From NCBI GenBank assembly GCA_900473685.1, contig UCNE01000015.1, positions 186,001 to 250,000 on the forward strand: a stretch of DNA of 64,000 bases, given 5' to 3'. The first letter of the stretch is position 1. Each line of letters opens with the position of its first letter. Position numbers and translations under genes: made by a program. Shown in pieces: positions 5,839 to 56,285 of the stretch. The notes under the pieces were generated by a model, which worked only from the letters and a program-made list of their open reading frames with translations, ran no database searches and was not told the origin of the DNA. Origin of the DNA: Hyphomicrobiales bacterium. GTDB lineage: Bacteria > Pseudomonadota > Alphaproteobacteria > Rhizobiales > Rhizobiaceae.

Positions 5839-7185
5839 TCAGGCGGCCTTCGCTGCTTCGGCCTGACGCTTGAGAATCTCGTAAATGCCGTTTTCATCGA
5901 GGCTGACAGGCAAAATGCCGCCTGCTGCCTCACCCACCGGTGCTGCGGCGTCGCCGGGGCCGGCGCGAGCAAGCAGAACGGCCGCATCGGCCTCTTCCTT
6001 GGCTTCCTCGGAGGCGTCCGTCGTTCCGGCTTCGCTATCGATCGAAGCTGACCCGCTCGCCACGCTGCTGCTGGTCGCGGTGCTTTCGGCCTCTTGCTCG
6101 ATCTCTGCGATTTCGGCGCCCGCTGCAAGGGTCAGCAGCAGGTCGCCCGATGTGACGACCTCTGCGGCCGGCTTGCCATCAGCGGCCGGCACATCGGTCT
6201 TGCCGGGGGCGTTGCGGACGGCGTCATTGACCTTTTCGATCGTGTCCTGAACCTTCTGGACGTCTTCCAGCTTTTCGCCCGCCTCCAGCTTGCGGATATC
6301 CTCTTCGCGCTCCTTGCGCGTTTCGGCATTCTCGACGCGGGTCGGGTCCGGCTGATGGGTTCTTTCCAGCTTCAGTTCTTCGATGGATTTCGGATCGGCG
6401 ATATCCTCCAGCCGCTGGATCGCGACCTGCGTATCCTCGACCGAGGTACCATCGGTGCGGGCGGAGTCATCAAGGACTTCCTGGATAATTTTGGCCTGAG
6501 TGCCGTAGGGATGCTTAATGGCATCAACGATCTGGGCCGCGGTCAGGCCCAGATCCCGCAAGCCGGTCTTGGTTTCAAGCTCTTCGATGCTTGCCGGCAT
6601 TGACTTGCGCACGTCGGCCATCGCCTCGCCGATACGCTTGCTGTAATCCTTGTCGTTCCCGCCCTCGTTTTGCGTGAGCCCATAGCGGGTCACAAAGCGG
6701 GCGGCCATCTTCGTCATTTCGGTTGACTGTTCCGCGGTGCCATTCAGCACGGCGTCGATGTCATCGACCGAGACCCGGAACCGGGCCAGCGTGACCTCAC
6801 GCGGTTGACCGGGAATACCGCCGTTCGCTTCTCTCTTGCCGATCATCGAGACCAGCGTCAACGTATCGGCAACGCGTGTCCCGAAATCCGTGTCGGTTTC
6901 ACCTTCGTCCCGGCTCACGCCCAAAACGTTCAAAAAGCGCGAGATCAGTTCCGCCATCGGATCGTCGTCGCTCTGCAGGGCGCCGAAGAAATGGGCGTTG
7001 ACCTTGTCGTTCAGGGCCGCATGGCTCTTGCTGGCCGAAATGCGCGCCTTGAGGATATCGTCCTCTTTGGTTTCCTTGCGCGCCTTCTTTTCGTCTTCGA
7101 CCCGCTTCTCCTCAGCTTGGTCGATCATCGACTGCATCAGCGTCGTGGTAATGGTTGCGGCACTGGACTGAAGAGGCGTGATCAT
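5839..7185 (-). CDS. Acidic hypothetical protein with internal repeat
   Basis: This 448-aa protein is not recognised. After a charged N-terminus rich in Lys and Glu, two modules of about 80 residues follow in tandem. Each begins RF(L/V)xxxG(V/L)(S/T)xxEGxxDxD(F/Y)xxR and ends in a helix containing DAVL or DAIK. The rest is Glu-rich, then Ala/Ser/Thr-rich, and probably disordered. No signal peptide or membrane span is present. The start at 7185 is chosen for GGAG five bases upstream; the frame stays open 17 codons further without support. A structural or cell-envelope-associated role is possible but unproven. Confidence 0.72.
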   Translation of the reverse strand: MITPLQSSAATITTTLMQSMIDQAEEKRVEDEKKARKETKEDDILKARISASKSHAALNDKVNAHFFGALQSDDDPMAELISRFLNVLGVSRDEGETDTDFGTRVADTLTLVSMIGKREANGGIPGQPREVTLARFRVSVDDIDAVLNGTAEQSTEMTKMAARFVTRYGLTQNEGGNDKDYSKRIGEAMADVRKSMPASIEELETKTGLRDLGLTAAQIVDAIKHPYGTQAKIIQEVLDDSARTDGTSVEDTQVAIQRLEDIADPKSIEELKLERTHQPDPTRVENAETRKEREEDIRKLEAGEKLEDVQKVQDTIEKVNDAVRNAPGKTDVPAADGKPAAEVVTSGDLLLTLAAGAEIAEIEQEAESTATSSSVASGSASIDSEAGTTDASEEAKEEADAAVLLARAGPGDAAAPVGEAAGGILPVSLDENGIYEILKRQAEAAKAA

Positions 7186-16687: not shown

Positions 16688-18370
16688 TCACGCCACCTGC
16701 CGTAAGGCCGGATCCGGGATCGGAACGGCTGCCATCAAGGCGCGGGTATAGGCATCCGCCGGATTTTCGAAGACGGAGCGGCGTGATCCCATTTCGACGA
16801 TGCGGCCGGCGCGCATGACCGCGACATTGTGGGACATGCGCTCGATTACCGCCATGTCGTGCGAGATCAGGAGATAGGCGAGCCCCATCGTTTCCTGCAG
16901 TTCCAGCATCAGATCGAGCACGCGGGCGCGCACGGAAACGTCGAGGGCCGCGACGCTCTCGTCGGCGACGATCAGTTTCGGGCCAAGCGCCAGCGCCCGG
17001 GCGATGCAGATGCGCTGGCGCTGGCCGCCGGAGAATTCATGCGGATAGCGGCTGGCGGCATCCGGCTGCAGGCCGACACGGCGTAGCAGCTCGGCGACGC
17101 GGTCGTCGCGTTCGCCCTTGTTGGCCAGGCCATGGATGATCAGCGGTTCGGCAATCGCGGCACCGACCGCCATGCGCGGATCAAGCGAGGCGTAGGGATC
17201 CTGAAAGATCATCTGGGCGCTGCGCCGCACCGGCCGCATCTGGCGCTGGTTGAGGCCGCCGATATTCTGGCCATCGATCACAACGTCGCCGGTAAAGGGA
17301 ATGAGGCCGAGAACCGCCTTGCCGGTGGTGGATTTGCCCGAGCCGCTTTCGCCGACGAGGCCGAGCGTCTGGCCGGGCAGGATATCGAAGGAGACCGCGC
17401 TGACGGCGGATGCGGGCGGCTTCTTGCCTGAAAGCCAGCCGGTTGCCTTGCCATAGGTTACGTCCAGCCCGCGCACAGTGAGCACCGGCGTGCGATCCAG
17501 CACAGGCGTCTCAGCCACCACCGGGCTGATACGCGGCGGCCCGTCGGTGCCGGCATGGGCGCCGAGCCGGGGCACGGCGGCAAGCAGGTCGCGGGTGTAG
17601 GGCTGCGTTGGTGCATTGAAGATCGGCAACGCATTGCCCTGCTCGATGATCCGGCCGCTCTGCATGATGACGACGCGGTCGGCCATCTGGGCGACGACGC
17701 CCATGTCGTGGGTGATGAGAATGATCGAGGCGCCGAATTCCCGCTTCAGCTCGTCCATCAGCTTGAGGATCTGCGCCTGCACCGTCACGTCGAGCGCCGT
17801 CGTCGGTTCGTCGGCGATCAGCACTTTCGGACGGCAGGAGAGCGCCATGGCGATCATCACACGCTGGCGCATGCCGCCGGATAGTTCGTGCGGATATTGT
17901 TTCAGCCGTCTTGCCGGATCTGTCATGTGCACGGCATCGAGCATCCGCAGCGCCACTGCATCGGTGCTGCCGCCGTCCGATCCCTGATGTTCGCGAATGG
18001 CCTCGGTCAATTGTGCCCCGATCGTCATCACCGGATTGAGCGAGGTCATCGGCTCCTGAAACACCATGGCGACATCACCGCCGCGAACGCCGCGCATGGC
18101 GCTGTTGGACAGACGCGACAGTTCGCGGCCTTGAAGCGCGATGCTGCCGGAGGCGATCTGCAACGACGCCTTGGGCAGAAGCCCCATGATGGCAAGCGAC
18201 GTCACCGATTTGCCGGAACCGCTTTCACCGGCGATGCAGAGCGTTTCCCCAAGCTTCAGATCGAAACTGACATCATCGAGAACCCGCCTGCGGCCTTCCG
18301 GCGTGCGGGCATCGACGCAGAGCTTGTCGACGGTGAGGACGGATGGGGAAACGGGGGCAGCAGATGTCAC
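16688..18370 (-). CDS. Double ABC ATPase of peptide/opine type
   Basis: This 560-aa protein fuses two ABC ATPase domains, equivalent to DppD plus DppF. Domain 1 has Walker A GESGSGKS, signature LSGGMRQR and Walker B VLIADEPT. Domain 2 has GESGSGKSTTG, FSGGQRQR and LIVADESVAALD. Both are followed by the oligopeptide-type C-terminal motif (QPYTRDLLAAVP and DAYTRALMAAVP). It starts with GTG at 18370, overlapping the acetamidase stop as GTGA, so translation is coupled. It should energise the two permeases encoded upstream in the operon. Confidence 0.92.
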   Translation of the reverse strand: MTSAAPVSPSVLTVDKLCVDARTPEGRRRVLDDVSFDLKLGETLCIAGESGSGKSVTSLAIMGLLPKASLQIASGSIALQGRELSRLSNSAMRGVRGGDVAMVFQEPMTSLNPVMTIGAQLTEAIREHQGSDGGSTDAVALRMLDAVHMTDPARRLKQYPHELSGGMRQRVMIAMALSCRPKVLIADEPTTALDVTVQAQILKLMDELKREFGASIILITHDMGVVAQMADRVVIMQSGRIIEQGNALPIFNAPTQPYTRDLLAAVPRLGAHAGTDGPPRISPVVAETPVLDRTPVLTVRGLDVTYGKATGWLSGKKPPASAVSAVSFDILPGQTLGLVGESGSGKSTTGKAVLGLIPFTGDVVIDGQNIGGLNQRQMRPVRRSAQMIFQDPYASLDPRMAVGAAIAEPLIIHGLANKGERDDRVAELLRRVGLQPDAASRYPHEFSGGQRQRICIARALALGPKLIVADESVAALDVSVRARVLDLMLELQETMGLAYLLISHDMAVIERMSHNVAVMRAGRIVEMGSRRSVFENPADAYTRALMAAVPIPDPALRQVA

Positions 18371-19311
18371 GCGAACACGATCCTTGGGAAATAGAAGGAG
18401 ACGACCCAATTCGGCATATCGACGATTTCGCTGATTCTGAGATCGCCGCAGACCGAGCAGAGCATGTAGGCATCGACGGGGTTCATGCCGTGTTCGGAGC
18501 CGAGCAGGTCGATCATCCGCATCAGCGCCTCGCGGGCACCGGTCATCAGGTCCGGACCGATGCCGGTGGTGACTTCATAGCCCATGCCGTCGAGATGGCG
18601 GGTGACGGGCTCGGTGGTGGTGAAGCGCGGGCTTTGCAGACGCGCATCCTTGACCAGCTCGATCGTCGCCTCGACTTCCATCTGGCTTTCGATGGCGGTG
18701 CCGCAGACTTCGCCGTCGCCTTGCGCGGCGTGGGTGTCGCCGATCGAAAACAACGCGCCATCGACTTCGACCGGCAGATAGAGCGTCACGCCCGAGGTCA
18801 GGTCACGGATATCGAGATTGCCGCCGACGCGGCGCGGTGGCACGACGGAATGCAGGCCGGGCTCGGCTGGCGCGACGCCGATCGTTCCGGCAAAGGGCTT
18901 CAGCGGCACCTTGCCGCCGGGACCGTAGAGCGACGGCGCCATGCTGTGCGGATCGTAGGACCACATATGCAGGGCCGGCTCCTTGAACTGTTCCGCGAGC
19001 AGGCCGAAGCCCGGAATATTGGCGGTCCAGCCGACACCGGACGGAATGAAGCGGCGGATCGTTACCTTGAGCGCATCGCCGGGCTTTGCACCTTCGACAT
19101 AGACCGGGCCGGTGACGGGATTGATCTTGTTGAAATCGAGCCCCGCCAGGGTTTCGAGCGTCGATCCGGCACCCAGCTGGCCGCCGGAGGAATCCAGGCA
19201 TTCGAAATGGATGGTCTCACCGGGCTTGGCGACCACAGCCGGCGGGAAATCCTTGTTCCAGCCGAAATTATGCTGGGCGCGGTGAATGGTATGGGTGCAG
19301 GCGACGCACAT
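18367..19311 (-). CDS. Acetamidase/formamidase family protein
   Basis: The 314-aa hydrolase belongs to the FmdA/AmdA family, which releases ammonia from short amides such as formamide or acetamide. Visible motifs are an early THTIHRAQHNFGWN, the metal-site region EVCGTAIESQMEVEATIELVK preceded by GDTHAAQGDG, and the C-terminal DAYMLCSVCGDLRISEIVD. GAGGAAAC precedes the ATG. It sits in an operon with an AmiC/AmiR pair and a transporter, which supports an amide substrate. Related proteins annotated as formamidase are usually longer, so exact specificity is open. Confidence 0.88.
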   Translation of the reverse strand: MCVACTHTIHRAQHNFGWNKDFPPAVVAKPGETIHFECLDSSGGQLGAGSTLETLAGLDFNKINPVTGPVYVEGAKPGDALKVTIRRFIPSGVGWTANIPGFGLLAEQFKEPALHMWSYDPHSMAPSLYGPGGKVPLKPFAGTIGVAPAEPGLHSVVPPRRVGGNLDIRDLTSGVTLYLPVEVDGALFSIGDTHAAQGDGEVCGTAIESQMEVEATIELVKDARLQSPRFTTTEPVTRHLDGMGYEVTTGIGPDLMTGAREALMRMIDLLGSEHGMNPVDAYMLCSVCGDLRISEIVDMPNWVVSFYFPRIVFA

Positions 19312-19469: not shown

Positions 19470-21092
19470 CTATTCGTCCTTCACGAAGATCGCGTCGTAG
19501 TTGATGACGCGGGTCGGATCGACGTAGATGTCGCCGTCGCCGCCCATGCGCGGCGACTTGGCGACGACGCGGCGTTCGTTGGTGACGGGAATCCACGGCG
19601 CATCCGCCATGATATCGGTGAAGATCTTGCCCCATTCGGCCTGACGCTCGGCAGCCTTGGCCGGATCCGACATCGAATCGGCGGCAATGGCGCGGGCATC
19701 CAGTTCCTTGTTGCAATACCACGACCAGTTCCAGCCGCCCTGGACAGCGCCGGAGCAACCAAGGATCGGGCCGTAGAAGTTGGACGGATCCGGGAAGTCG
19801 GCGATCCAGGCCATGCCGCCCGACCAGATCATCGGTGCTTCGCCTTCGGTGCCGCCAGCGGCGATCACGTTGGCCTGCGCCAAGGCGCGAACCTCTGCCT
19901 TGACGCCGATAGCGGCCAGATCCTGCTGGATCGCCTGGGCGATGCGCGGTTGCGGATCGGTGTTGGTCGAGTAGAGGATCGTCTCAAAACCGTCCGGGAA
20001 ACCGGCTTCCGCGAGCAGCGCCTTGGCCTTTTCGACGTCGAAGGCATAGCCGGTGAAGGCCTTGTCATAACCCGGCATCAGCGGTGGCAGCGGCTGGTTG
20101 GCAGCGGTGGCGCGGCCGTTGAGGATGCGGGTGATACGCTCCTTGTTGATCGCCATGTTGAGGGCCTGGCGGACCTTCACATTGTCGAACGGAGCAACCT
20201 TGGTATTCAGCGTGATGTAGCCGGTGTGCAGCTGCGCACCATCGACGATGATCTCGGCGCCCTCAGGCGAGTTCTTGATCTCGAGGAACTTGGCTGGCGG
20301 CACGCCGTCCCCGGCGATATCGACTTCGCCCTTCTGCAGGCGCAAGAGCGCCACCAGCGGCTCCTGGCCGACTTCGACGGTGAACTTGTCGATATGCGGC
20401 ATGTCTTTCACGAAATAATCCGGGTTGCGCTCGAACACGAGACGCTGGCCGACGGTCCATTCCTTCAAGACGAACGTGCCTGAACCGACGGGCTTCTTGC
20501 CGAAATCACCTGCCGCAGCCTCGACGGCTTCCTTCGGCACGACGGACGCAAAGTTGATGGCGAGAACATGCAGGAAGGTGGCATCCGGGCGCGACAGCGT
20601 GAAGATCACGGTCGAATCATCGGGCGTTGCGATCCCTTCGAGCGTCGCCGACGTGCCGCCGCTGACGGCGTCAAAGCCCTTGATGGCGCCGAAGAAGCCG
20701 GCTCCGGGACCTTGCGTCTTCGGGTCGATGGCGCGCTCGATCGAATATTTGACGTCGGAGGCCACCAGTTCGCGGCCGTTGGTGAATTTCACGCCCTTGC
20801 GCAGCTTGAACGTATAGGTGAGGCCGTCGGGCGAAACGGTGAAGCTCTCGGCGAGCGACGGAATCAGGTCCGGTGTGCCCGGCGTATAATCCATCAGGCG
20901 CGAATAGAGGCTCTTGATCATCGACCAGTTGACCCAGTCATAGCCGACGGCCGGATCGAGCGTGGCAATGTCGTCCTTGTAGGTGATGACGACATCGCCG
21001 CCCTGCTTGATAGCATCCTGCGCGAAGGCGGGCAGCGGCGTGAGGGCAAGCGCCATCGCGATTGTCGAGTGTCTAAGCCAGCGTTTGAACAT
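19470..21092 (-). CDS. ABC transporter family 5 substrate-binding protein
   Basis: The 540-aa periplasmic protein is of the peptide/nickel/opine class (SBP_bac_5). The signal peptide ends PAFA|QDA. Family signatures are DIATLDPAVGYDWVNWSMIKSLYSRLMDY, LAESFTVSPDGLTYTFKLRKGVKF and the DVKYSIERAIDP segment. GGGGAA sits before the ATG. It captures the substrate for the two permeases upstream and the double ATPase downstream. In this AmiC/AmiR-linked operon the ligand may be an amide-bearing compound rather than a peptide, which is inference. Confidence 0.93.
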   Translation of the reverse strand: MFKRWLRHSTIAMALALTPLPAFAQDAIKQGGDVVITYKDDIATLDPAVGYDWVNWSMIKSLYSRLMDYTPGTPDLIPSLAESFTVSPDGLTYTFKLRKGVKFTNGRELVASDVKYSIERAIDPKTQGPGAGFFGAIKGFDAVSGGTSATLEGIATPDDSTVIFTLSRPDATFLHVLAINFASVVPKEAVEAAAGDFGKKPVGSGTFVLKEWTVGQRLVFERNPDYFVKDMPHIDKFTVEVGQEPLVALLRLQKGEVDIAGDGVPPAKFLEIKNSPEGAEIIVDGAQLHTGYITLNTKVAPFDNVKVRQALNMAINKERITRILNGRATAANQPLPPLMPGYDKAFTGYAFDVEKAKALLAEAGFPDGFETILYSTNTDPQPRIAQAIQQDLAAIGVKAEVRALAQANVIAAGGTEGEAPMIWSGGMAWIADFPDPSNFYGPILGCSGAVQGGWNWSWYCNKELDARAIAADSMSDPAKAAERQAEWGKIFTDIMADAPWIPVTNERRVVAKSPRMGGDGDIYVDPTRVINYDAIFVKDE

Positions 21093-21124: not shown

Positions 21125-22045
21125 TTAGCGCGCACGAATGCGCGGATCGATGAGTGGTGCGATCAGATCGGCGACGAGATTGCCGATGACGATGGCCAGC
21201 GCGGAGACAAGCGTCACGCCCATGATGATCGGGATATCGACCTGCTGGATCGCCTGCCAGGCGAGCTGGCCGATGCCCGGCCAGCCGTAGACGGCCTCGA
21301 CCACGACCACGCCGCTCATGAACTGGCCGATATCGATGCCGATCATTGCAATGATCGGCAAAAGCGCATTCGGCAGCGCATGGCGAAAGACGATACGGGC
21401 GGATGACAGGCCCTTGGCGCGGGCGGTGCGGACATAATCCTGATTGAGCACGTCGATCATTGCCGAACGGACCATGCGCGCATACCAGCCGGCGCCGAGA
21501 ATGCCGAGCGTGGTGGCGGGCAGCACGACATGGGCAAACGTGCCGAACCCGCTCATCGGGAACCAGGCGAGCGTGACCGCGAAGACATAGAGAAGCAGAA
21601 GGGCTGCGACGAACTGCGGTGCCGATACGCCGACGAAGGACGCCATCATCACCAGCCGGTCGACCGGACCGCCGCGGCGGACAGCGGCGATGACGCCGAG
21701 AATGAGCCCGAGCGCAACTTCAACGAAGATGCCCGCCGCCATCAGGATGAGCGTCGCCGGAAGCCGGGCCGCGATCAATGCGCCAACATCGGTCTTCTGC
21801 GCATAGGAGCGGCCGAGATTACCCTCGGTCAGGCCCATCAGATAGTTCCAGAATTGTGAGAGCAGCGGCTGGTCGAGGCCGAGTTCGTGGCGGATGTTGG
21901 CGACCGTCTGCGCCGTGGCGCTGCGTCCGGCGATCATCCGGGCGGGATCGGCGGGCAGGGCGTAGAGCAGCAGGAAGGTGATGGCCGCGACACCGAACAG
22001 GATCAGCGCCGTCTGGACGAGCCGCCGCAAAATGAGGAACGCCAT
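21125..22045 (-). CDS. ABC transporter permease, DppB type
   Basis: The 306-aa inner-membrane protein has six predicted helices. The N-terminal FLILRRLVQTALILFGVAAITFLLL and the DPAR motif are typical of DppB/OppB proteins. The EAA loop reads DYVRTARAKGLSSARIVFRHALPNA. The ATG at 22045 comes one base after the stop of the DppC-type gene (TGAGATG). It pairs with that gene to form the membrane channel of the importer. Confidence 0.93.
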   Translation of the reverse strand: MAFLILRRLVQTALILFGVAAITFLLLYALPADPARMIAGRSATAQTVANIRHELGLDQPLLSQFWNYLMGLTEGNLGRSYAQKTDVGALIAARLPATLILMAAGIFVEVALGLILGVIAAVRRGGPVDRLVMMASFVGVSAPQFVAALLLLYVFAVTLAWFPMSGFGTFAHVVLPATTLGILGAGWYARMVRSAMIDVLNQDYVRTARAKGLSSARIVFRHALPNALLPIIAMIGIDIGQFMSGVVVVEAVYGWPGIGQLAWQAIQQVDIPIIMGVTLVSALAIVIGNLVADLIAPLIDPRIRAR

Positions 22046-22046
22046 C

Positions 22047-22895
22047 TCAGCCCCTCCCGCGTTGGGTGGGGTCAAGGATATCGCGCAGCGCATCGCCGAC
22101 CAGATTGAAAGAGAGCGCGGTCAACAGGATGACGGCGCCGGGGATGAATACCAGCCAGGGGGCGGCCTGGAAATAGCTCTGGCTTTCGAAGATGATATTG
22201 CCCCAGGACGGTGTCGGCGGCTGCACGCCGATGCCGAGGAAGGAGAGCGTCGCTTCCAGAAGCACGGTGGTGGCGATGCCGAGCGTGCCCCAGACGATCG
22301 CCGTCGGCATCAGATGCGGCAGGATGTGATGGAACAGGATACGCAGATGGCCAGCCCCCAGCGAGCGTTCCGCCAGGATGAAGTCGCGTTCCACCAGCCC
22401 GCGGGTTTCGGTATAGACGATGCGGGCGACCTGCACCCAGTTGACCAGCGCAATCACCATGGCGACGATCCAGAGGCTGGGGCGCAAAAGCGCTGCCAGC
22501 ACGATGGCCAGGAGCAGGGCTGGAAATGCCATCATCAGATCGGTGAAGCGTATCAGCGCATTGCCGACAAGGCCGCGCATGTAACCGGAGAGGATGCCGA
22601 TCAGAAGACCGATCGCCACGGCGATGCCGTTGGCGACGAGGCCAATGATCAATGATGTGCGGGCGCCGTAGAGAAGGCGCGAAAACAGGTCGCGGCCGAG
22701 CGTATCGGTGCCGAGCAGGAATTGGGCGCTCGGCGGCATCGGCGCGCCTTCCAGTGTCAGACCGTCAAACATCTGTTCATCGGGGTTATAAGGCGCAATC
22801 AACGGTGCCGCGACCGCCATGAAAATGACGAGTGCGACGATCGCCAAGCCGAACAGCGCTGACGGCTGGCGGATCATGCTTTTCAGTATGCGCAT
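22047..22895 (-). CDS. ABC transporter permease, DppC type
   Basis: The 282-aa inner-membrane protein has the DppC/OppC features: an early PSALFGLAIVALVIFMAVAAPLI helix, the LLGTDTLGRDLFSRLLYGARTSL segment, and the EAA loop ERDFILAERSLGAGHLRILFHHILPH. The ATG shares one base with the stop codon of the ANTAR gene (TGATG). The frame is open for 28 more codons upstream, but those overlap the ANTAR gene and are not used. Confidence 0.92.
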   Translation of the reverse strand: MRILKSMIRQPSALFGLAIVALVIFMAVAAPLIAPYNPDEQMFDGLTLEGAPMPPSAQFLLGTDTLGRDLFSRLLYGARTSLIIGLVANGIAVAIGLLIGILSGYMRGLVGNALIRFTDLMMAFPALLLAIVLAALLRPSLWIVAMVIALVNWVQVARIVYTETRGLVERDFILAERSLGAGHLRILFHHILPHLMPTAIVWGTLGIATTVLLEATLSFLGIGVQPPTPSWGNIIFESQSYFQAAPWLVFIPGAVILLTALSFNLVGDALRDILDPTQRGRG

Positions 22896-23476
22896 CAACC
22901 GGCCTCCGGCAGGGGCTCGGCGCCACCGAGGATGGAGGCTGCGACCTGCTCCATCGGCATCCGGCGCTGCATCGCGCAATTGCGCAGGATCGTGTAGGCG
23001 AATTCCTCATCCACCTTGCGCACGGCAATGATGCGCTCGACGGCGGCGTGAACCAGCGGCCGCAAGCGCACGCGCTCTTCCAGATGCTTCATTTTCTCGA
23101 TGACCGCCTTTCGTTCATGGTGAATGCCGAGCGCCATGACCAGAGCCGGATAAACGGCGGAGGAACCCAGCGGCTTGGCGATAATGGAGCCCGCACCCTG
23201 TTCCATCGCCCAGGCAATCCGGCCCGGCGCTTCCGAACCAAGCAATGTCACCAGTGGTAAAGGTGCATTCCCGCCGGTCCACGGCAGAAGGCCGTCCCAG
23301 CCCTGATCGGCATCGACAAGCACGAAATCCGGCAGGTCGGTGGCATCAAGCGGTTGCCATTGGACCGTCACCTGAAAGCCGATCAGCCTCAATTGCCGGG
23401 TCAGGCGCTCGGTGTTGCTGTCTTCGCGGTGCAGGACCGTTGCGCGCCAGCCTGTGAAATTCGGGGTTTCCCTCAT
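22895..23476 (-). CDS. AmiR-like ANTAR antiterminator
   Basis: This 193-aa protein has a degenerate receiver-like N-terminal domain (FVLVDADQGW without the usual phosphoacceptor pocket), a coiled coil around ERKAVIEKMKHLEERV, and a C-terminal ANTAR domain (VERIIAVRKVDEEFAYTILRN and ending PMEQVAASILG). AmiR binds nascent leader RNA through ANTAR and prevents termination; its partner AmiC inhibits it until an amide is bound. It overlaps the AmiC-like gene by four bases (ATGA), as expected for a pair made in equal amounts. Its target is probably the leader at 24617-24697. Confidence 0.88.
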   Translation of the reverse strand: MRETPNFTGWRATVLHREDSNTERLTRQLRLIGFQVTVQWQPLDATDLPDFVLVDADQGWDGLLPWTGGNAPLPLVTLLGSEAPGRIAWAMEQGAGSIIAKPLGSSAVYPALVMALGIHHERKAVIEKMKHLEERVRLRPLVHAAVERIIAVRKVDEEFAYTILRNCAMQRRMPMEQVAASILGGAEPLPEAG

Positions 23477-24609
23477 GACACGATCCTCAACGGCGACGGC
23501 ATCCGGCTGCGGCGGTTGGTGAGATAAGGATCGGCGGCGATCGCTGGCTGAGAGGCGATAATGTCGAAACCACCTTCATCGTTGATCCGGCCGAGATGGA
23601 ACGGCAGGGCGGCGTGGCGCGTGTCGGGATTGATCAGGAGTGGGCCCAGCACAGTCGGCGTGGGCGCAGCCGAAAGCTGGCGGGTGACGGCGAGCGGGTC
23701 ATCGGTCCCAGCGGTGATGATTGCGTCGGCGCAGAGCTTGACCGAGGCATAGGCACTGGCAAAAACGCTCGATATACGCCTCTGGCTGCCAAACTTGGCG
23801 GCAACTTGCGCTTTGAAGGCGGCATTCTCGGGCGTTGCGACCGTATCGAAATAGGCGGCCGCGCAGAGTTGGCCGGTGGCGACGCCAAGGCCGATATAAG
23901 GGAGTTCGCTTTCCTGCAGGTCGCAGCTGACGACCGGGCAGTTTTCCGGTCGGAAGGCCGGATCGCGGGCGCCGAGTGCGCGGATCGCGGCCAGGAAGGC
24001 ATAGCTGGAGGGGCCGATGAAATTGTTGAGGATGAAGCTTGGCCGCCGCTGCTCGATATCCAGCACGATGCGCTCGACGGCGGTTTCCTCCAGTGGTAGA
24101 TAGCGCTCTCCAAGCACCTCGCCGCCGGCTTCCTCGATCAGTTCGCGGGCCAGCCGGTTCATTTCCCAGCCCCAGACGTAATTGGCCCCGACCAGATAGG
24201 GACGACGGCCAAAGCGCGGGATCAGGTAGTCGAACAGTGGCAAGAGATGCTGGTTGGGACAGCCGCCGGTATAGATGACATTGTCATTGGCCTCGAAGCC
24301 TTCATAGGGGCACATGTACCAGAGCAGGCCGTCATGTTTTTCGACGAGCGGAATGACTTCCTTGCGGGCGAGCGAGGTGATGGTGCCGACGATATGACGG
24401 CAGCCGTGATCGCGCAGCATCGAGCGGGCGCCTTCGAGATAGGCGGTAATATCGGCATGCGGGTCGATGACGACCGGTTCGATAGCGCTGCCATGGAGCG
24501 CGCGGATTTCCTCGATCGCAAAATCGGCGCCGTCGCGCGCATCGCGTCCGATCTCGGCATAGGGGCCGGTCGTCGAATAGAGGATGCCAATCCGTACCGT
24601 GTCTTTCAT
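23473..24609 (-). CDS. AmiC-like amide-sensing binding protein
   Basis: This 378-aa protein has the periplasmic-binding-protein fold (branched-chain amino acid/amide type) but no signal peptide, so it is cytoplasmic like Pseudomonas AmiC. Motifs are RIGILYSTTGPYAEIGRDARDGADFA, LWYMCPYEGFEANDNVIYTGGCPNQ and LVGANYVWGWEMNRLARE, all found in the AmiC/UrtA-like group. AmiC senses short amides and releases the antiterminator AmiR when ligand binds. It is the first gene of the operon, right after the leader terminator, and overlaps the ANTAR gene. Confidence 0.88.
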   Translation of the reverse strand: MKDTVRIGILYSTTGPYAEIGRDARDGADFAIEEIRALHGSAIEPVVIDPHADITAYLEGARSMLRDHGCRHIVGTITSLARKEVIPLVEKHDGLLWYMCPYEGFEANDNVIYTGGCPNQHLLPLFDYLIPRFGRRPYLVGANYVWGWEMNRLARELIEEAGGEVLGERYLPLEETAVERIVLDIEQRRPSFILNNFIGPSSYAFLAAIRALGARDPAFRPENCPVVSCDLQESELPYIGLGVATGQLCAAAYFDTVATPENAAFKAQVAAKFGSQRRISSVFASAYASVKLCADAIITAGTDDPLAVTRQLSAAPTPTVLGPLLINPDTRHAALPFHLGRINDEGGFDIIASQPAIAADPYLTNRRSRMPSPLRIVS

Positions 24610-24616
24610 CGATCCG

Positions 24617-24670
24617 CCAAAACCAAAAACCCCACGACAGCTGCCCCATCATCGGGGGAGCGTCATGGGG
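24617..24670 (-). terminator. Leader terminator (attenuator) upstream of amiC-like gene
   Basis: In RNA sense, CCCCATGAC pairs with GTCGTGGGG (nine pairs, one G-U), continuing inward through GCT/AGC and CCCC/GGGG to a six-base loop. TTTTTGGTTTT follows at once. It ends only eight bases before the first start codon, so it must be an attenuator and not the end of another gene. Confidence 0.85.
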
Positions 24671-24697
24671 CCAAACTGCCCGTCGACCCTGAGGGTC
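24668..24697 (-). promoter_or_regulatory. Competing leader hairpins, candidate ANTAR target
   Basis: Two small hairpins precede the terminator in RNA sense. The first is GACCC-TCA-GGGTC (24685-24697). The second is GGGC-AGTTTG-GCCC (24668-24681), with a six-base loop starting with A. The second shares three bases (24668-24670) with the terminator's 5' arm, so the two structures exclude each other. The loop lacks the G at position 4 of the classic ANTAR consensus. Confidence 0.55.
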
Positions 24698-24728: not shown

Positions 24729-24758
24729 ATTAAAATACGGGCAATGCTCCGGTGTCAA
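24729..24758 (-). promoter_or_regulatory. Predicted sigma-70 promoter of amide operon
   Basis: In minus-strand sense TTGACA (24758-24753) is followed by TATTTTAAT (24737-24729). Spacing is 15-17 bases depending on the -10 hexamer chosen. Transcription would start near 24722, giving a leader of roughly 110 bases that contains both hairpins and the terminator. Confidence 0.6.
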
Positions 24759-27294: not shown

Positions 27295-27381
27295 TGGTGC
27301 CCAGAAGAGGACTCGAACCTCCACACCCTTTCGAGTACCAGCACCTGAAGCTGGCGCGTCTACCAATTCCGCCATCTGGGC
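27295..27381 (-). tRNA. tRNA-Leu (anticodon CAG)
   Basis: This 87-nt class II tRNA begins GCCCAGATGGCGGAATTGG and ends TCTGGGCACCA, with the CCA encoded. The anticodon stem CCAGC/GCTGG encloses TTCAGGT, anticodon CAG, which reads CUG. A long variable arm follows, and the T-arm has GTTCGAGTC. It is followed by a terminator. Confidence 0.96.
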
Positions 27382-46012: not shown

Positions 46013-46082
46013 CGCCCTTTTTTCCCCAAGACGGGGCCGCTTGGCTGCAAATCGTGTCCGGAGAGGACAGAAGGAAAAGGGT

Positions 46083-46178
46083 GGGAGGCTGGCACGATGA
46101 CCCGTGCCTGGCTCGTTGGGGCTGCTTCCTTCCGGACCTGACCCGGTTGGCGAGTGGCTCGTCCACCACCAACCTCCC
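46083..46178 (-). ncRNA. ffs: Signal recognition particle RNA (4.5S)
   Basis: The minus strand holds the SRP domain IV core GTCAGGTCCGGAAGGAAGCA with the GGAA tetraloop and flanking asymmetric loop. The ends GGGAGG and CCTCCC pair, giving a single long hairpin of 96 nt. The predicted promoter places the transcription start exactly at 46178. It lies just upstream of dnaX, as in many alphaproteobacteria. Confidence 0.93.
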
Positions 46179-56195: not shown

Positions 56196-56285
56196 TGGCG
56201 GACAGAGCGGGATTCGAACCCGCGATACGCTCTCACGTATACACACTTTCCAGGCGTGCGCCTTCAACCACTCGGCCACCTGTCC
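56196..56285 (-). tRNA. tRNA-Ser (anticodon GGA)
   Basis: This 90-nt class II tRNA starts GGACAGGTGGCCGAGTGG and ends CTCTGTCCGCCA with the CCA encoded. The anticodon stem CACGC/GTGTG encloses CTGGAAA, anticodon GGA. A long variable arm precedes the T-arm GCGGGTTCGAATCCCGC. Acceptor pairs fit, with a final G-T. Confidence 0.96.

Follow-up and report, generated by a model that had tools for sequence, protein, structure and literature searches.

Leader RNAs that are read by ANTAR proteins have been described for the EutV, NasR and AmiR systems, and the published rule for them is an A at position 1 and a G at position 4 (A1 and G4) in both of two hexaloops (PMC3369931, PMC8934654, PMC3369936, PMC8164766). 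In the account given for EutV, Tyr164 stacks on G4 and Arg142, Lys149 and Glu160 form hydrogen bonds to the same base; Arg168 and Met172, the latter as a plug, make further contacts, Asn173, Arg175 and Arg177 act on the stem and phosphate, and Lys143 and Lys147 contribute from the other chain (PMC8934654). A change of G4 in the eutP leader is reported to lower both induction and binding (PMC3369931), and at Lys347 of NasR even an arginine is reported to cost about tenfold in affinity (PMC7496416). In Pseudomonas aeruginosa, AmiC is described as releasing AmiR on amide binding (PMC3369936). A search of open-licence PMC papers found none on the Rhizobiaceae leader described here.

The window (the whole stretch of DNA that was analysed, 64,000 nucleotides) carries on its minus strand, downstream of this leader, a seven-gene operon in which Pfam recognizes an AmiC-like protein, an AmiR-like protein, ABC transporter genes and an acetamidase/formamidase-family enzyme (Table 1). 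The Peripla_BP_5 protein adjoins the protein with AmiR_N and ANTAR domains, an arrangement that was taken to define an AmiC-AmiR pair, and the best PDB match of the window AmiR by sequence is P. aeruginosa AmiR (1qo0). No NCBIfam model above cut-off gives a name to AmiC, AmiR or the enzyme: the AmiC-like protein matched UrtA best, below cut-off, the AmiR had no match, and the enzyme scored only 122 bits against the formamidase model, for which the cut-off is 500 bits. The designation of an amide operon therefore rests on family likeness and the AmiC-AmiR pair, from which we judge that the operon probably serves amide use.

With the amiE system of P. aeruginosa the locus has in common an AmiC sensor, an AmiR with pseudo-receiver and ANTAR domain, an operon for an amide enzyme and, by all appearances, an antitermination leader. 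The P. aeruginosa leader precedes amiE, whereas that of the window precedes amiC, and the regulator genes therefore sit behind the switch; moreover, both amiE loops have A1 and G4 by published description (PMC3369931), whereas the P2 loop of the window is without G4. With the eut leaders of Enterococcus faecalis it has in common the order of P1, P2 and terminator, the overlap of P2 with the 5' arm of the terminator, a short linker and an ANTAR protein as the presumed reader. In the RNAs read by EutV each of the two hexaloops has A1 and G4 (PMC3369931, PMC8934654), but in the window family P1 has neither A1 nor a fixed loop size, and P2 combines A1 with U4 in the window; EutV is phospho-activated, whereas the window AmiR has an adjoining AmiC-type partner. 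The NasT/nrtA-type leaders of the same bacterial family (names from context) are alike in their ANTAR protein, in the overlap of P2 and terminator and in occurring partly in the same genomes; they differ in that their P2 loops have A1 and G4 and that NasT retains the equivalents of Lys149 and Asn173 (30/30).

Table 1. Features of the amiC leader and the operon behind it; positions are those of the window.
Feature	Position	Strand	Sequence, basis or remark
Promoter -35-like TTGACA	24753-24758	minus	Sequence
Conserved TATTTT(A) block, -10-like	24732-24737	minus	Alignment; 15 nt after TTGACA; candidate
Upstream stem P0	24707-24719	minus	AGAU-UAAGC-AUCU; weak in the window, stronger and co-varying in many relatives
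Conserved CACAU immediately 5' of P1	24698-24702	minus	Alignment
Hairpin P1	24685-24697	minus	GACCC-UCA-GGGUC; family-wide, arms GAC/GUC, rarely GGC/GCC, enclosing 6-8 nt
Hairpin P2 (putative antiterminator)	24668-24681	minus	GGGC-AGUUUG-GCCC; hexaloop A1 G2 U3 U4 U5 G6
Switch point, three bases common to P2 3' arm and terminator 5' arm	24668-24670	minus	C24670-C24668; sequence
Terminator hairpin	24630-24670	minus	5' arm begins CCCCAUGACG at 24670; 3' arm ends at 24630
Terminator U-rich tract	24617-24629	minus	UUUUU GG UUUU GG; sequence
amiC-like ligand-binding sensor	23473-24609	minus	Pfam Peripla_BP_5 above cut-off; name from context
amiR-like protein, AmiR_N pseudo-receiver and ANTAR	22895-23476	minus	Pfam, both above cut-off
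ABC permease, OppC/DppC type	22047-22979	minus	Pfam; present in 80/80 related loci
ABC permease, OppB/DppB type	21125-22093	minus	Pfam; present in 80/80 related loci
SBP_bac_5 substrate-binding protein	19470-21092	minus	Pfam; present in 78/80 related loci
Acetamidase/formamidase-family enzyme (putative)	18367-19311	minus	Pfam FmdA_AmdA above cut-off; 78/80 related loci
Double ABC ATPase	16688-18409	minus	Pfam; present in 77/80 related loci

A preliminary description of this leader had claimed a 54-base intrinsic terminator, a small hairpin (GGGC-AGTTTG-GCCC) that overlaps the terminator's 5' arm by three bases, and a second hairpin just upstream. Terminator and U-tract indeed span 54 bases (24617-24670), the overlap consists of C24670-C24668, and the second hairpin is P1; the gap to the amiC ATG (24609), given there as eight bases, is seven (24616-24610). 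The 86-nt leader folds into P1 plus the terminator with a z-score of -2.5, and taken separately the window hairpins have energies of -5.8 (P1), -6.0 (P2) and -28.3 kcal/mol (terminator); termination is predicted to be the default fold because the energy of the terminator outweighs that of P2. A four-T run occupies the position of the U-tract in 84 of the 84 leaders aligned below, and in 81 of them TTGAC is followed 14-16 nt on by the -10-like block (regular-expression search; three unmatched). A promoter scanner returned nothing above threshold at the window leader, and the list of a simple terminator scanner did not include the amiC-leader terminator. A long-range pairing of UUGCCCGU with ACGGGCAG, which appeared in the first fold, was rejected because the segment sits between the -35-like and the -10-like block, where transcription has probably not yet begun.

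The complete layout (three-pair P1, four-pair P2, a hexaloop starting with A and an overlapping terminator with a T-tract) was turned into a scan once the site had been seen; this found one site on both strands of the window, the amiC leader, and none in 10 dinucleotide-shuffled windows. Among 4227 Rfam covariance models none matched the window leader at E up to 10 or at gathering score; two weak matches (E up to 10) fall inside amiC, outside the leader, and at gathering score there was likewise none at the leaders of four relatives (L033, L041, L064 and L097). Elsewhere on the minus strand of the window, Rfam placed a Small signal recognition particle RNA (46081-46177) and two tRNA genes (27298-27381 and 56199-56285). 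In one relative (L064, 1165-1389) a Cobalamin riboswitch precedes the AmiR operon by several kb.

Relatives were collected by scanning species genomes with a 13-sequence AmiR profile, from which the best 80 of 141 were taken; in all 80 of these, an AmiC-like gene lies directly upstream of amiR and the same kind of leader precedes amiC, and in 77 all five further operon genes are present, the other three loci showing two or four. An unclassified Rhizobiales isolate has an AmiR 97% identical to that of the window; Rhizobium sp. Root1334 and Pararhizobium polonicum, the latter placed in the Rhizobiaceae, have AmiR proteins with 91% identity to it. Together with the window and three further loci (L013, L014 and L015), the 80 relatives gave an alignment of 84 leaders, referred to here as clade 1. 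The preliminary description had set conservation of the competing hairpins in relatives as a test, and P2 and the terminator are kept in 84/84 leaders and P1 in 83/84, with compensatory changes; the single leader lacking the P1 consensus is L112. The linker between P1 and P2 measures three letters in 83 of the 84, and the energy of P1 drops to zero in some relatives.

Since many of the 84 species are closely related, the leaders do not amount to 84 independent tests, the cell counts given here are not independent, and kinship alone can beat the shuffles; with that reading, P1 and the terminator were paired in 97.7% of cells, two-sided changes occurred at 7 of 14 pairs (shuffle mean 2.4) and in 43 cells (shuffle mean 6.8), and neither count nor the covariation score was reached in any of 500 shuffles. 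When the partner was slid by one to three columns, pairing of P1 and terminator fell to 31-50%. The number of further pair types did not rise above the shuffles, 225/500 and 203/500 of which reached the count in the P1-plus-terminator and P1-plus-P2 tests, respectively. For P1 and P2 together, 98.8% of cells were paired; P2 itself is nearly invariant in clade 1, three of its four pairs never varying and hence being uninformative. The fourth pair is informative because its 3' base (alignment column 110) also sits in the terminator. In 73 leaders the P2 partner, the shared base and the terminator partner read G/C/G; in the other 11 the shared base is U, with P2 and terminator partners G/G (6), G/A (2), A/G (2) or A/A (1), and both pairings survive in 11/11. 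Survival of both pairings is what a real either-or switch would predict, and with the three shared bases it bears out the earlier claim that only P2 or the terminator can form at a time.

The hexaloop of P2 begins with A in 84/84 clade-1 leaders, followed by G (75) or A (9) at position 2, U (79) or C (5) at position 3, U (76) or A (8) at position 4, U (78), G (5) or C (1) at position 5, and C (69), G (14) or U (1) at position 6; G4 occurs in 0/84. What the preliminary description had seen in a single loop, A at position 1 and T instead of G at position 4, is lineage-wide. In P1, the three-base arms enclose 7 letters in 61, 6 in 16 and 8 in 6 of 83 leaders (L112 left out), and the first letter is U in 64 and C in 19, never A; a P1 hexaloop with A1 and G4 is absent. 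Of the features of dual-hexaloop ANTAR RNAs, the leaders do have two tandem hairpins with a short linker before an intrinsic terminator, and a P2 that overlaps the 5' arm of the terminator and is mutually exclusive with it. The site is best viewed as an ANTAR-like antiterminator variant outside the A1/G4 dual-hexaloop family, because two sequence features that define the canonical RNAs fail. Comparison of leaders before amiC-amiR thus supports the earlier suggestion of a variant site with the layout of an ANTAR antitermination site, at which binding and read-through would take place; beyond it, P1 too departs from the canonical loop, and the variant loop is accompanied by changes in the ANTAR domain.

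The genome of origin (5.5 Mb, 49 contigs) encodes two ANTAR proteins, the AmiR described here and a putative NasT; the latter was named from its sequence and the two nitrate/sulfonate-type binding proteins that follow, NCBIfam giving no name. The leader of this NasT-NasS locus (L182, about 6780-6880, between NasS-type and NrtA-type genes) has the P2 loop AUCGAC, with A1 and G4, and a terminator. Among NasS-linked leaders of the same bacterial family, an anchored P2 with A1 and G4 was found in 25/30, the anchors (GAC/GUC and GGC/GCC) having been chosen post hoc; near the gene, the anchored search yielded no A1/G4 loop in L194, L197 (which has another loop, AUUUGC), L201, L209 and L219.

The residues of EutV that contact the loop were mapped onto the AmiR-like and NasT proteins with MAFFT, the numbering of chain 6wsh_A being shifted by two to match the named residues. 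The equivalents of Arg142, Arg168 and Met172 are retained in 101/101 AmiR-like proteins, that of Tyr164 in 84/84 of clade 1 and 8/17 of clade 2 (the more distant loci described below), and that of Glu160 is E in 78 and D in 6 clade-1 proteins. At the position of Lys149, which corresponds by spacing to Lys347 of NasR, 84/84 clade-1 proteins have V, I or L and 17/17 clade-2 proteins V, T, I or M, versus K in 30/30 NasT; the Asn173 equivalent is found in 0/101 AmiR-like proteins versus 30/30 NasT, and at Arg177 101/101 AmiR-like proteins have P, T, S or A, versus K or R in 29/30 NasT. The G4 base and a residue that grips it are thus missing together, although the contrast between AmiR and NasT is one deep split on the tree and cannot prove co-adaptation. 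Partial loss of the EutV/NasR contacts (Lys149/Lys347 and the Asn173, Arg175 and Arg177 set) could also mean weaker RNA binding.

Clade 2 comprises 17 loci (L016-L032) of the same GTDB family, whose AmiR is 37-44% identical. These loci share with clade 1 the AmiC-AmiR gene pair and, in 16/17, a P2-like hexaloop hairpin and terminator before amiC; in many of them a P1-like hairpin precedes P2 by a few bases, in several with ACAU-like letters ahead of it (both by eye), and in some, e.g. L017, L020 and L023, no P1 was identified with confidence. Thirteen P2 loops were found by script and three by eye (L020, L024 and L026), L032 being dropped as it offered no credible site; among these 16, A1 is present in 15, G5 in 15, both in 14 and G4 in none. 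Clade 2 differs from clade 1 in this G5 and in its stems, most of which are GGC/GCC (also in P2) instead of GAC/GUC and GGGC/GCCC. G5 was considered as the ancestral state of the loop and this was dropped: on the AmiR tree, built from 105 rows by a quick method and with 42 of its 102 inner branches left open, G5 changes at least five times and the five clade-1 members with G5 are nested, so no direction is claimed.

At the level of the class, four loops were obtained (AAUUGC, AUCGGA, AAAUGA and GAUCAG), that of L115, AUCGGA, having G at positions 4 and 5; three further loci gave none. A strict rule that presence of Lys149 means G4 was dropped because amidase-type loci are mixed. Burkholderia arboris (L260) keeps the lysine, with loops AAAGAA in P2 (by script) and AGCGUU in P1 (by eye), a Paraburkholderia locus (L259) has no lysine (by eye) and P2 AACAGA, and L177 has glutamine with P2 AAAAAA and P1 AACAGC (by eye), all three of which fit. 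Rhizobium etli 8C-3 (L258) has the lysine, one loop with G4 (AACGAC, by eye) and a P2 of AACAGG, a mixed case, and Roseibium (L261), with the lysine and the loops AACAGC (by eye) and ACCAUA (by script), neither with G4, speaks against the rule. The P2 loops of L171 and L183 (AACAAG) and of L186 (AAUAAA) are also without G4; among ten AmiE loci, only L183 and L186 show a hexaloop-terminator site. In loci with a more classical AmiR and amiC first (L174, L175, L178, L180 and L181) no site was seen by eye within 260 nt upstream, and likewise none by eye in L172 and L176. Two plasmid loci, L258 (985-1206, pRsp8C3a of R. etli 8C-3) and L261 (957-1176, Roseibium aggregatum), seem by eye to carry two tandem terminators between the ANTAR gene and an operon that includes urtB-E and an amidase; A-starting hexaloops of differing sequence precede each terminator.

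A further element, P0, lies between the -10-like block and P1 (24707-24730 in the window, and at the same place in L033-L112). In many relatives the loop of a small upstream hairpin (GCCU...AGGC) can pair there with the bases right before ACAUGAC, in variants such as UGCGGAU/AUCUGCA, UGCAGA/UCUGCA, UGUGG/CCACA and UUCGUUU/AGACGAA. Stems of five or more uninterrupted pairs at the chosen score limit were present in 62/84 leaders. Across 35 distinct loops, native partners gave 20 stems, compared with a mean of 8.2 and a maximum of 16 in 5000 swaps, and the mean score was reached in 0 of 20,000 swaps; shuffling within sequences was less telling, 25/84 leaders reaching p 0.05. P0 is strong in some species, such as Neorhizobium alkalisoli (L097), but weak in the window and its nearest kin, L013 and L014 seem by eye to have a plain hairpin instead, and the small GCCU/AGGC hairpin is partly supported, several of its pairs being mismatched in many leaders. 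If both helices coexist, P0 and the small hairpin together would possibly form a pseudoknot near the 5' end.

From 53 leaders a P1-P2 covariance model was built, with which genomes were searched. The genome of origin contains one strong site, the window leader itself (E 1.2e-14; next 0.89), and no convincing second target, the five further matches having E 0.9-7.7 (150 of 4751 first-look candidates scored). Among 199 Rhizobiaceae genomes, 30 had a model match at E 0.05, of which 13 had E at most 3.1e-9; the next best match after these was at E 9e-4, and the weaker matches, in 17 genomes, ran from there to 0.05. The 13 strong sites occur once per genome, about 1.2 kb upstream of amiR and before amiC, and their genomes are exactly the 13 of 199 in which a clade-1 AmiR (58% identity or more, E at most 1e-71) is the best match. 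Because the model was trained on several of the 13 or on sequences near them, it is mainly the 186 genomes without a strong site that form a free test, under strict filters and with 32 candidates scored per genome. A second weak model match (G149:C4:22018-22055, E 0.023) lies on the contig and strand of that genome's weak ANTAR match. With strong sites confined to the 13 genomes with clade-1 AmiR and a single one in the genome of origin, the element is tied to this AmiR; it looks like the protein's only strong target, with amiC-amiR placed behind their own switch.

Together these data make it very probable, in our judgement, that the amiC leader is an AmiR-controlled transcription antitermination switch of an autoregulated operon, with a P2 loop that would be read by a code other than A1/G4. 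Behind this stand the competing structures, their conservation, the compensatory changes, the occurrence matched to the type of AmiR and the single strong site in the genome; binding by AmiR, control by AmiC and its ligand, and a rise in read-through are inferred, in line with the known ANTAR systems. By analogy with P. aeruginosa, AmiC would hold AmiR when inducer is absent; the strong terminator would form in the nascent leader, and transcription would halt just before amiC. On binding its ligand, AmiC would free AmiR, whose ANTAR dimer would grip the emerging transcript at P1 and at the hexaloop of P2, and P2 would be held; the terminator could then not close, because P2 takes its first three bases, and the operon, including amiC and amiR, would be read.

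The same leader might instead be governed by translation. A start codon in the conserved CACAUGAC (AUG in 82 of 84 leaders, UUG in one, lacking in one) would allow a ribosome on a short ORF to choose between P2 and terminator, and P2 does fall at the same frame position in 61/83 leaders; but over the whole set it lies in frame 0, 2 or 1 in 61, 16 and 6 leaders, the predicted peptides end after 8-29 codons in 34, whereas in 49 no stop codon is reached within the leader, none of the 83 has AGGA, GGAG or GAGG, taken as Shine-Dalgarno-like, within 16 nt upstream, and the corresponding letters of several clade-2 leaders are CAUA, with no AUG (by eye). Leader-peptide attenuation is not supported by frame, peptide length or Shine-Dalgarno search, and we regard it as very improbable. 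No more credence is due to a plain constitutive attenuator, or a terminator for transcription from upstream, with the P2 overlap an accident: a strong terminator before a gene would suffice for the fold energy, but the window has this layout only once and the shuffles not at all, the stem and hexaloop of P2 rank with the best conserved parts, both pairings survive where the shared base changes, and the site occurs together with amiR. A working switch could also be driven by something other than AmiR, either NasT, named from its sequence and neighbours and the one other ANTAR protein of the genome, or a small molecule acting on a riboswitch. Control by NasT is made unlikely by the loop contrast, the leader beside NasT having the A1/G4 loop AUCGAC and related leaders A1/G4 in 25/30, and by occurrence, since NasS-type genes are found in 50/101 family genomes versus strong sites in 13/199; the leader matches neither a riboswitch nor any other RNA family of Rfam, and a driver of either kind strikes us as highly unlikely.

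An ordinary ANTAR site, in which loop position 4 is irrelevant and AmiR reads RNA as EutV does, with no separate code, seems to us unlikely but deserving of real weight. The window AmiR retains the equivalents of Tyr164, Arg142, Glu160, Arg168, Met172 and Arg175, the AmiR of the Roseibium locus has Lys149 and yet no G4 loop was found there, and the contrast of AmiR and NasT amounts to a single deep split. Against this, G4 is absent from 84/84 leaders instead of drifting, the Lys149, Asn173 and Arg177 equivalents are altered in 101/101 AmiR-like proteins and kept in 30, 30 and 29 of 30 NasT, and a G4 change in the eutP leader reduces induction and binding by the published report (PMC3369931). 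Going further than an AmiR-controlled switch, we propose tentatively, with chances that we put a little short of even, that Rhizobiaceae AmiR-like proteins recognize RNA by a second ANTAR code: a P2 loop of A1-G2-U3-U4-U5-[C/G]6 without G4, a P1 that would serve as a clamp indifferent to its loop and, to match, an AmiR that has lost the lysine for G4 as well as the asparagine and arginine for stem and backbone, so that AmiR and NasT signals would be kept apart in one cell, with P0 (perhaps a pseudoknot) as a third element in many relatives. The AmiR system is possibly orthogonal to that of NasT.

Searches for ANTAR targets use the A1/G4 rule in two hexaloops; this rule fails in 84/84 clade-1 leaders, and such searches would therefore miss real sites like these. 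The leaders are candidate orthogonal antiterminators for synthetic circuits, and AmiR and NasT, present in one cell, offer a ready comparison for the ANTAR residues that set RNA specificity. The ANTAR family of regulators has been credited with a single RNA code and may in fact use two or more.
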